From Hypomesus transpacificus (Eukaryota > Chordata > Actinopteri > Osmeriformes > Osmeridae), in NCBI RefSeq assembly GCF_021917145.1, contig NC_061082.1:5378032-5442031 (forward strand): a DNA stretch of 64,000 bases. The letters are read 5' to 3'. The notes under the pieces are model-generated. The model did no database searches. It saw only the letters and a list, made by a program, of their open reading frames with translations, and was not told the origin of the DNA. This document shows, in pieces, positions 9,190 to 62,337 of this stretch; within the stretch, counting starts at the first letter, position 1; every line of letters begins with the position of its first letter. A program made the position numbers and the translations under genes.

Positions 9190-22814
<13,625 letters not shown>

Positions 22815-57110: not shown

Positions 57111-58008
57111 GCAGAGCCATTATCATGAAGAGATGCTCTTCAGGATCTACACTGAATTGCCAACTGAACTGATTAGACTTTGACAACAGCCTATGTACCA
57201 TTTAACATGTGGATGCTATTGTAGGATATCTTTATGAAGGACCTCTGCCCTTACATGGTTGCACTGTTCTAAACAATTTTCAAAATTATTATTTTTTGCT
57301 TCATAATAGTTGTGCATATTTTTACCTTAATTGTATGAAAGTGTAGTATTGAGTATGCGGTGTCTGTGAACTTATGTCACAAGAATCTTTACTTTTACTT
57401 ACAGTAACTGACAAATGGCAAATTATTTTTCCTATTTGTATGTTTTTCTATTTTTATATGGTTTTGTTGACTAGACAATATATGGTTTAGCCATATTGGG
57501 GACATTTTAATGTTTTGTATTTTTATTTCCTATCTCAATCCAAACAATTATTTATTTGATTGGAGCAAAAAAAAGTTTTTATTGCTGTGCATAGACTGAA
57601 ATACAAGTGATGTCGTTTTATTTGAATGCATTTTATTTGTACATGACGAACAACAATATAAATTCCTTATTCTACAATTTCCTAATGTTATTTTCTGTTT
57701 TATTAAATTATTTTACAATTATTATTCTCTTCCTCAAACTGTTTTCCAGACCTATTTTTAACATACGGTGACAACTCATAAAAGCTTCAGTCGAAGAAGC
57801 AAGTTTTGCTGAAGTCTAACTGTAGAGGGCGGGGCAGTGACGTTCAGAGGCTCTCCAAGCAAAGGTTTTGTTTATCTCGTGCAGCGGGTGTGGTAGGCTA
57901 CAGTTCAAAACAAGTCAAAAGTTTCTGAACAGCAGTTTTCTATCTATGTCGTGCAACAATTGAAAGCAAAAGGTAAGCTACATTACTGCACAGCAATTTT
58001 AGGTCTAC

Positions 58009-58073: not shown

Positions 58074-58491
58074 TTATAAAATGTGTTTAATGAAAGATTA
58101 GTAAAGCTTGGAGGATAGGACAAAATAATCGTTAAACGTATTATTACGTACTGTATAATCGTTAAATCGTATTATTTACAAGAGAGCTGGCAAGAATGCG
58201 TTAGCATAACCCGTGAAGCAAGTTCAAGATATAGGCCTAGATAAATTTTCATATCAATGCCTATAAAATAACCGTTACCAAAAGTAGGCTTAAATACGTT
58301 AACCTTTTTCGATTTCCGTAAGACAAATCCCAGTTCTACTCAGATTCAACAGAAAAACACGGAGACAGGTTGTTTTAGTTTTAGTTAAAACAATGTTTTA
58401 TGTCCCACTCCCAATACATTCATGGTAGCCTGTTTACAGAGTACAGAATGAACAGGACGTCCCGCAACATCCGGTCTCGGCTAGTCATATC

Positions 58492-58527
58492 GAAAGTGAA
58501 AGTAATCTACAGTGTTGAAATTGAAAC
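58492..58527. promoter_or_regulatory. Two IRF/ISRE-type GAAANNGAAA sites
   Basis: GAAAGTGAAA at 58492-58501 and GAAATTGAAA(C) at 58517-58526, both exact to the IRF-element core, 16 bp apart and about 0.7 kb before the APOL-like start codon. They could drive an alternative interferon-responsive promoter or act as an intronic enhancer. Confidence 0.65.
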
Positions 58528-59238
58528 ACATTAAGTAGACGTAAGCCATTTTTATTCAGTTGGTTTGTGTCTGTTTCTGTTCACTTTGAGATAAACAGCA
58601 TATGACAATGACACTGTCAACTTAAATGTGTATTGAATAAAACATTAGGGAAATTAAATTGGATAATTACTGGGTAGAATAATTGAGTAACGTGAGCTTG
58701 GGGCGCAGATGTGGGGGCTAGGAGGACTCGGGGGAGAGGAGTAAGCTGAGTGGTTCCCTAAAGGCCAAGAACTCCCCTGAGTTCTACCTCCACACAGAAA
58801 CACACTGAACAGTAATCACCTGGCATCCTAAAAATGTATAGTGTATACTATAAATAAATAATTCTATACATTAGCTTTCTATTGCTGAATTCTAATGAGA
58901 AATGGTGCAAAACAGGATACATTATAAAGTATTGCAATGGTAGCCAACCTTTTTAATTGGATACTAACTTCCATAATATTTATGAATTGTGACTCAGAAT
59001 TGTGAGTCATAATTATTAAATTGTTGAAGTTTCTAACCCAGTTGTCGATTAGCTGCCACACAACCTTTTGTGCAAGTACAACTCTTTCATGTAGAAACAA
59101 AACCAGTTTCCCAGTGTGTCTTTTGAGAATTTGTAAATAAATCAAATAGGCCTACTCTGAGTATTATAGAACTAACAATATATTGTCTGAACAATTTCAT
59201 GTCTTTAATCTTTCCAGTCACCTACTCACTGAATCACC

Positions 59239-61773
59239 ATGGAGATCGCCAAAAACTTGTGTGATAAGCTGTACTCTCTCATCGAGAATCAAAAGCGATG
59301 TGCTCCTCAACTAGTGAACCTGGCCAAAGAGTTGGAGTCCCAGAGAAAAGCCTACACTGTGGCTAAGTATGCTGGGAACACCGCCTCTGTGCTGGGCTCC
59401 GTGGCGGTAGTAGGGGCGGGCTTGGTCACCTTCTTTAGCGGGGGTGTGGCTGCTCCCCTCCTGGTCGCTTCGATGGCTGCAGCCGGGGCCACGGTGGGAG
59501 GGGCCGGGGTCGTCCTTAACCTGGGGGCCCAGTTATTTGAGTGGCTGCAGTCCAGCAGTACCTTGAAAGATGCGGAGAAGATCATAGAGAAGATTAGGAA
59601 GCTTAGAGAGAAGATCGAGAGACTTCAGAAAGAGCTGAAAGAAGAGTGTGAGAAGTTCCCCAAGTTAGAGTCCTCGGGGCCCCTTGGAGGGACGGAGTTT
59701 GTTCTGTCAGAGTCCCCAGGGGGCCTTGACCCGATGGAGTACTTTCTGAGAGCCATAGCCGTGCGGAGCGGTGTGAAGTGGCACACTCATGAGCCGTTGC
59801 TCCGGGTGGTGTCGAATTGGCCCAATCATAGGTTCACGGTAAACAATATCCATCATGGCCACGGTGATTCTTTTCATTTGATGGTGGCGTTTCCAGTTTT
59901 GGGTGCTGCCTGCCTGGCTTTGGTTCCAAAAGAGGTTGGAAAAGCAGTCTTAAAGACAACTCTTGCTGGAACTTTAAAGGGTGCAGCGCAAGTAAGTGTT
60001 TTAACTTATGGGGTAATAACAGGTCAGCGCAAATAACAAAGTGTGCCAGGAATGCTTCTTTTAAATGGAGGGTATGTTTGATTTAAATTTGACACAAAGG
60101 ATTCTTATTTGCAGTATACAAAATAAAACAGGGAACAAATATTATTTCGAGGTCATTTCAACTGCTAGTTCAAGTTGTCAAGAGGTGTACTAGGTGAGTT
60201 TCCAATGCACAGATGGTGTTGTACATATCACAGGTTCTGTTCAGTAATTTCTCGGTCTCTTTCAGATCGGTGGAGGAGTTCTTGGTGTGGCACTGTCTCT
60301 TCCAGGAATGATTTCCAATATACAAGAATTAGTCAAAGGCGATCATGTGACAGAAGCCAGCCAATCTTTGAGAGATACAGCCAAGGAAATGAAGACTGTT
60401 ACGGAGGACTTGGAGAAAGAGCTTGACTCGATCCAGTAAGCTATTTCTTAATGTTCTACATGCAAGGCAGACATTTCAAATAAATGACTAATTTCTCTGA
60501 AATTAATTTTCAAATGTAGCCTAAAGGACTTGCTGTATTCAATGTTCTATTTGTTTTGAAATACAGATTCAAAGGTTTTTTGTAAAATGTTGATTAATCT
60601 TAAAATTACTTCTGGAGTGCAATGTAAAGTGTATGTTTCCTGATAGTGGTAATTCATCCATTTCTCTCTCATCTGCCTTTGTCTTAGTAGCTGAAAATCC
60701 CATTCAAGTGTACCACTATCTTCTTAACATCCACAGTGTGAAAACACACATATAACTGTGGACCCATGAATTAGTATTTCCAGCAACATTTCTGTGGTCT
60801 AATTACATTGTGTACCTTCTACATCTTTTCTCACAGGGAGATCATCAAGGAGATTAGTGAGGTGAAGCGCTGCATTGACAGCCTTGAATACTCTGATCCT
60901 GCCACTAAGAAGAGTGAAAGTCAAATTCAAAGGGAAAGAATAATCCTGGACTTTCTGAGGAAGACATCTCAAAATCAATATCTGCTGCAGTGGATAGAGA
61001 GCATGGCCAGTATTGCACTGTTTCTCAACCTTGTGCTTTATTTAAACATGCTGCTACAGGAAAACAAGAAGAAGAAGAAGAAGAAACAAACAGATGAAGT
61101 TGACATCATCATCGTGGCACATGGAGAGATCACAAAACACCTCCTGCCAGCCTGTCTCCTTGTGCCCAGCCCTGCCATCAAAGACACCATTCTCTACTCT
61201 CCCTGGAACTGTGCCATTGACAGTAAAGTGGCCTATGGCATCGCAAAAGGCTGCATCGAACCTAACCACCGAGACTTTTTCTGCTCCTGGTGTAAAGCAC
61301 CTGAATCCGATCACAAGCCGTCTGACCTTCCTGGCAGATGGAATCACATGAAAGATGCCAGTCTCATCCCGGAGATCATTCTCCGTCCTGTGAAACCAGA
61401 TGAAGATGCGTGGGAGAGGCTTGGATCTTTGGACACGGAACTTTCAGAGAGCCGCTTCCTTTTCCCGTACCTCTTACCAAAGGGTGTGAACCCAGAGCTC
61501 TTCCCAGGGGTTTCATTCCATGTCTTCATCTCAGCCTTGAACCTGGTCCTTACGCTCTGTGGAGTCAAAGCCACTGTCCATCTGGCAGCGTTCCTGTGCC
61601 AGTACAGCCGAAGAGATGAGAGTGTGTTCCTTGAGTACTCCTACGCTGACGACTACACTATAATGACCACGAAAGGTGACATGAAGGTAGATCGTCAGTC
61701 AGACCTGTACAAAGCGTTCAAACCTATGTTCGGGGAGTCACCGTCCTGTCGCAGCAGAAGTTACCATCCCTAA
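59239..61773 (+). CDS. Apolipoprotein-L-like protein fused to an uncharacterised fish C-terminal domain
   Basis: Coding exons 59239-59991, 60266-60435 and 60837-61773 join in phase to 1860 nt, 619 aa. Residues 1-250 resemble the APOL family: amphipathic helices, then a Gly/Ala-rich hydrophobic hairpin (VVGAGLVTFFSGGVAAPLLV, AAGATVGGAGVVLNLG), then a coiled coil (DAEKIIEKIRKLREKIERLQ). After an insert (SGPLGGTEFV to about residue 225) a second hydrophobic helix pair follows (VAFPVLGAACLALVP; GGGVLGVALSLPGMI) and further coiled coil. Residues 390-619 form a different domain: DIIIVAHGEITKHLLPACLL, ILYSPWNC, AYGIAKG, a Cys/His cluster (FFCSWCKAPESDH), then a hydrophobic ATVHLAAFLC segment. I recall this type of domain from unnamed fish proteins but know no function. 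APOLs of primates are interferon-inducible pore-type membrane proteins. If intron 1 is retained, the frame stops at 60036. Confidence 0.8.
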
Positions 61774-61774
61774 A

Positions 61775-62040
61775 CAGATCACCAAGCTGCGTATCACCAA
61801 GCTTCGTATCACCAAGCTGCATATCACCCAGCTGCGTATCACCAAGCTGCATATCACCCAGCTGTGTATAACCTTGCTGCGCATCACCCAGCTGTGTATA
61901 ACCTAGCTGCGTATAACTCAGCTGCGTATCACCAAGATGCATATCACCAAGCTACATATCACCTAGCTGCATATCACCAAGCTGCGTATCACCAACCTGC
62001 ATATCACCAAGCTGGTATCACCAAGCTGCGGCCTCCGTCG
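61775..62040. repeat. 17-bp tandem repeat in the APOL-like gene 3'UTR
   Basis: About 15 copies of atcaccaagctgc(g/a)t(a)-type units directly after the stop codon. Confidence 0.92.
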
Positions 62041-62337
62041 CTGGTGAATTAGCTGTTGTGGATTTTAATAGAAGTCGTTGTAATGAATGAATTAAATCCA
62101 TGCAAGTGGGAATAACATGTGAGCTTGTTATTAAGAAAATAGGGTTAGCTTCTGTAGTGATGTTTCTCATGTTAATTAAGTTCATAATTTTCAAGCCTAA
62201 ATCTATCCTGTCCTTATTTCAATATGATTTTCAAGTATTACTCAATGCATATTCTACCACATGAATTAGACAGTTATATGTTTGTTTTTCATTACTGATG
62301 TGTTATTGCCATATTATTGGTTGATTTTATTCTACTC

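Follow-up and report, generated by a model that had tools for sequence, protein, structure and literature searches.

Apolipoproteins L (APOLs) have been described as interferon-induced proteins with a membrane-inserting hairpin, according to a review (PMC7891394) and to PMC8358165. In the latter source, most human APOLs are without an obvious signal peptide, and APOL5 and APOL6 carry extra C-terminal sequence after the APOL module, in extensions of 76 and 45 residues, respectively. A gain in copy number of the APOL2 gene has been reported for stickleback (PMC4159527); PMC6854765 concerns ApoA/C/E and not ApoL, and the term 'fish' is absent from the main text of PMC12248677. An APOL joined to a C-terminal domain of the kind described below was not found among the matches listed in the open-licence literature.

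A stretch of 64,000 nucleotides from Hypomesus transpacificus (contig NC_061082.1, positions 5,378,032 to 5,442,031; hereafter the window) was analysed, and an APOL-like gene was identified near its downstream end. Its predicted protein resembles the Apolipoprotein L family (PF05461; human APOL1-6 and loci L003-L018 of the same genome) in possessing a long helix, a glycine-rich hydrophobic hairpin and a second long helix within residues 1-140, with more hydrophobic segments further on and a stretch that may correspond to the APOL coiled coil. In common with most human APOLs, no obvious signal peptide was seen by eye. It differs from the family in that it lies under Pfam detection, has no pore-lining aspartate and possesses an extra C-terminal domain of about 225 residues. 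The order of an APOL module followed by additional C-terminal sequence is shared with APOL5 and APOL6, whereas the addition here is far longer than the extensions given in PMC8358165 and comes after a further hydrophobic segment. The features of the locus are listed in Table 1.

Table 1. Features of the APOL-like gene and its flanks, in window coordinates.
Feature	Position	Strand	Basis
Two IRF-type sites, GAAAGTGAAAG at 58492 and GAAATTGAAAC at 58517, 25 bases apart	58492..58527	+	sequence
Coding exon 1 (predicted), residues 1-251	59239..59991	+	open reading frame, 5' splice site GT at 59992, codon score
Glycine-rich hydrophobic hairpin, residues 48-93, where APOLs have their membrane-insertion region	59380..59517	+	hydropathy, own-genome ApoL profile, invariant Gly
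Hydrophobic segment, residues 211-229	59869..59925	+	Kyte-Doolittle mean 2.05
Coding exon 2 (predicted), residues 252-307 plus two bases of codon 308	60266..60435	+	splice sites AG and GT, continuous frame
Hydrophobic segment, residues 252-270, where APOLs have the pore-lining helix; Ser262 for Asp	60266..60322	+	hydropathy, weak alignment
Amphipathic stretch, residues 272-350, split by intron 2 (60436-60836), similar to the leucine-zipper region of APOLs	60326..60963	+	hhalign to residue 351; C-half profile
Coding exon 3 (predicted), through TAA	60837..61773	+	AG acceptor, no stop in frame, codon score
Hydrophobic segment, residues 363-381, seven Lys shortly after	61000..61056	+	hydropathy, sequence
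Unclassified C-terminal domain, residues 394-619 (VAHGEI, LYSPWNC, AYGIAKG, TVHLAAFLC)	61093..61770	+	no accepted database match
His/Cys cluster HxxxxCxxCx6H, residues 452-467	61267..61314	+	pattern in protein
15-base tandem repeat, 16.9 copies, presumed 3' UTR	61778..62030	+	repeat search
Candidate polyadenylation signal AATAAA	62338..62343	+	sequence

Conceptual joining of the three exons gives a coding sequence of 1860 nt, which encodes 619 amino acids followed by TAA and contains no internal stops. Both introns begin with GT and end with AG, and the phases agree at both junctions. The ATG of exon 1 lies within CACCATGG, and exon 3 is stop-free over 312 codons, the chance of which is 2.8e-9 at the local base composition. 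Codon scores, for which the PARP14-like open reading frame of the same window served as training set, were positive in frame for exons 1, 2 and 3 (0.20, 0.23 and 0.12, respectively) and negative for both other frames of each exon and for every frame of both introns. From the nucleotide sequence we infer that the three exons are spliced into one frame. A three-exon gene with matching phases had been proposed in the earlier note, and this structure is borne out; its junctions (59991/60266 and 60435/60837) were correctly placed at the level of splice sites and frame join.

The Pfam ApoL model showed no match to exon 1 at E<=10, was not among the families listed (25 of 28) at E<=1 for the full-length protein and missed the window gene when run over the organism's own genome. 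Elsewhere in that genome it identified sixteen stretches over its cut-off on contigs C10, C17, C21, C60 and C210, some of which are pieces of one gene. An eleven-row profile was built from these, with one row each for L003, L005-L009 and L011-L015 (L009 and L014 being pieces of one gene); L004, whose score and span are the same as those of L003, and the fragments L010, L016, L017 and L018 were excluded. Against this own-genome profile the window protein scored 33.7 bits, and the best of 1000 shuffles scored 18.1, the controls being 500 full and 500 block shuffles (500 of them keeping local composition). An hhalign comparison with own-genome ApoL, run without a shuffle control, covered residues 1-351 with a probability of 94.7%, an E value of 1.3e-8 and 20% identity. 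The strongest APOL part is residues 21-135 (28.2 bits with the own-genome profile), corresponding to the membrane-insertion region, and in alignment A1 (11 rows, namely ten ApoL rows and the window protein) all seven invariant columns, L25, A29, G46, G53, G59, G68 and G83, fall within this region. An AlphaFold2 (AF2) model of exon 1 with the ten ApoL rows has helices at 2-46, 91-105 and 107-138 around a low-confidence hairpin, with ten-residue pLDDT means of 68-78 over residues 1-40 and of 63-80 over residues 101-140 and an overall mean of 49. When the whole genome was searched with exon 1 (E<=10), three non-self matches were returned (E 0.047, 0.24 and 0.25), none of which is significant alone; all three had also been picked up, independently, by the ApoL HMM.

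An alternative is that this likeness is convergent only, as might be expected of any long helix-hairpin-helix membrane protein such as DUF726 or the ClyA-type bacterial pore formers. DUF726 itself comes close to its cut-off (E 7e-5, 22.4 bits against 22.6), HblD is matched at E 0.0085, far under its cut-off, and the L1 chain of hemolysin BL is the best PDB match for residues 1-308 (E 0.043); the silence of the Pfam ApoL model points the same way. The own-genome profile score argues against convergence, being 15.6 bits above the best of the 1000 shuffles, as does the fact that each of the non-self genome matches of exon 1 is an ApoL locus, and we regard convergence as unlikely. Neither Pfam nor NCBIfam gave a family at its curated cut-off for the full-length protein, for exon 1 or for the C-terminal domain; DUF5798 (E 4.3e-5) and RPW8 (E 3.7e-4) were also below cut-off and were read as coiled-coil composition. 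As judged from these comparisons, the N-terminal half (residues 1 to about 350) is a divergent, APOL-derived module, in agreement with the APOL-like N-terminal module of the earlier note.

The likeness to APOLs is lower in the part that corresponds to the pore-lining helix and the leucine zipper. A profile of this C-terminal half of ApoL gave 9.1 bits, ranking second of 1001, with one shuffle scoring 9.7. The pore-lining aspartate is present in all nine own-genome ApoL rows compared (L003, L005, L006, L007, L012, L013, L014, L016 and L017), and the window protein has Ser262 in its place; these rows were cut by eye in a weak alignment, and they amount to fewer than nine independent cases since L003, L005 and L017 are near copies. 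Outside this comparison were L004, L018 (which shares its ORF with L016), the pieces L008-L011, which are N-terminal, and L015, from which the pore-lining segment is missing altogether. In APOL1 the pH gating and cation selectivity depend on this residue, D348, according to PMC8358165. Because this half is weakly matched and is without the aspartate, APOL-type channel behaviour is not to be assumed. The 'APOL-like pore domain' of the earlier note is thus retained as APOL-like, its membrane-insertion region being homologous to that of APOLs, and the word 'pore' exceeds the evidence.

Several own-genome ApoL loci have features of their own. ApoL matches are grouped at C60:223706-254133 and C10:8812571-8824855. 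The ApoL match at L014 runs on into a long Lys/Glu-rich tail in a 568-residue open frame, and the ApoL open frame at L003 (1450-2601) finishes with a long, leucine-rich tail of low complexity, in which respect its near-copy L005 differs.

Two products encoded in a row would be another explanation of the locus, in which exons 1-2 would give an APOL-sized protein and a second protein, of 256 residues, would start at Met364 (61003) in exon 3. Retention of intron 2 brings a stop right at the donor (60437-60439), leaving an APOL-sized protein of 308 residues, and with intron 1 retained the frame of exon 1 terminates at 60036; furthermore, Met364 directly precedes a hydrophobic segment, the one such segment at the start of that protein. 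These observations are to be set against the GT/AG sites and the phase agreement at both junctions, and against the portion of exon 3 between the acceptor and Met364, which is still coding-like with a codon score of 0.095, above the 95% point (0.067) and below the 99% point (0.127) of a background of 2141 overlapping flank segments, mostly non-coding. We consider two separate products distinctly unlikely and prefer a single protein with an APOL-derived and a C-terminal part.

The C-terminal domain has no detectable relatives in the searches made. At E<=10 it matched no family of Pfam or NCBIfam, and a sequence search of the PDB gave nothing below E 1.2. A tblastn search of phages and plasmids returned one weak match each (E 2 and E 8), neither of which was accepted. 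Peptide patterns derived from the single protein gave 6, 7 and 34 matches in viral and prokaryote genome contigs, none of them confirmed; such patterns reach close relatives only. In the 437-Mb genome (376 contigs, with the window on contig C23) one copy was found, namely the domain itself, and the fourteen 10-kb stretches around the sixteen ApoL matches held no match at E<=1. Apart from itself, exon 3 matched the genome once (L039, E 0.057); this match was dismissed as chance and its locus judged to be an unrelated gene, from its peptides presumably a dynein heavy chain gene. Since the domain is without database or genome relatives, it is not simply a known APOL region, a possibility that the earlier note had named; the Pfam, genome and ApoL-locus searches gave no APOL match, and the domain lies beyond the APOL-matching residues. 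Its description in the same note as unnamed is therefore confirmed for Pfam, NCBIfam and the PDB.

Within the domain, the HxxxxCxxCx6H cluster could bind metal, and a hydrophobic stretch of its own was identified by hydropathy at residues 533-551. The order of its HG, Y-x-P and Cys motifs is similar to that of the Stv domain; the Stv model (PF21527) had no match in the window protein or in the genome, in a genome search whose controls were silent too. AF2 modelling of the domain from its single sequence did not yield a usable model (pLDDT 33). That it is a clan CD (caspase/CHAT) enzyme whose H403 and C562 dyad acts on the attached membrane module is highly improbable. In favour of this are a motif order like that of clan CD peptidases, in which one strand would close with His-Gly (VAHG, H403) and a later one with Cys (AAFLC, C562), and the strands that the single-sequence AF2 model places, at very low confidence, at VDIIIVAHG and TVHLAAFLC. 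Against it, neither a Pfam family nor a PDB chain was found for the domain within the limits given above. Equally improbable is a reading of the C-terminal part as an enzyme or sensor of a new kind, perhaps a protease resembling caspases or CHAT by its His-Gly and Cys strand ends, which by its fusion to the APOL module would make a one-protein sensor-executioner of fish cell-autonomous immunity.

Upstream of the gene, a third IRF-type site was identified at 58307 on the opposite strand, in addition to the two in Table 1. The 1.34 kb upstream hold three GAAANNGAAA sites, for which the Poisson P is 0.002 at the rate of the window itself; at least two such sites were obtained in 2 of 300 simulations. 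The presence of IRF sites upstream, as claimed in the earlier note, is supported in the form of these IRF-type sites. By eye, the pyrimidine-rich AG at 59216-59217 points to a non-coding exon further upstream, and a GTAAGC at 57973 is a candidate donor of a 5' exon, which would possibly place the IRF-type sites inside a 5' intron. Downstream, the stop codon's own frame remains open for 92 codons (61774-62052), across the 15-base repeat. Rfam and ARAGORN searches found nothing.

A PARP14-like gene with KH domains, Macro and WWE occupies at least 38.0-44.1 kb, within about 15 kb of the APOL-like gene. Between the two lies a C2-domain gene, which we take to be an extended synaptotagmin (ESYT) and which ends near 57.1 kb by eye. 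The placement of the gene near PARP9/PARP14 therefore holds for PARP14, although with a gene intervening; PARP9 was not identified, and a Macro-domain ORF on the minus strand (34.1-35.0 kb) was found instead. On the other side, a MIP-T3 gene, presumably TRAF3IP1, starts near 63.4 kb. Two adjacent ORFs of 234 and 123 residues were seen by eye at 16885-17961 on the minus strand; they look to us like a Tc1/mariner transposase.

The explanation that we tentatively favour, and which could well be correct, is that the gene encodes a variant APOL which is induced by interferon and acts on membranes, and to which a domain for regulation or targeting has been added. Its mechanism is proposed as follows. 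Interferon would probably induce the gene via the IRF-type sites. In residues 1 to about 350, long helices would flank a glycine-rich hairpin that enters the membrane, followed by two hydrophobic segments and the coiled-coil-like stretch, and a hydrophobic segment with a lysine run would connect this APOL module to the separate domain of about 225 residues. The protein may act from the cytosol upon a membrane, either intracellular or microbial, and the C-terminal domain may steer the membrane module or hold it back. The APOL-like gene may be an immune gene. The architecture given in the earlier note stands, with the corrections that the APOL relationship is distant, that the pore-lining aspartate is absent and that PARP14 is near and non-adjacent.

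APOLs have been studied chiefly in mammals, as interferon-induced membrane proteins. If the proposed reading is true, the presence of a large separate domain on an APOL-type module would mean that two-part effectors have arisen within the family, and the gene would offer a way into an unnamed domain recognised by none of the classifiers tried.
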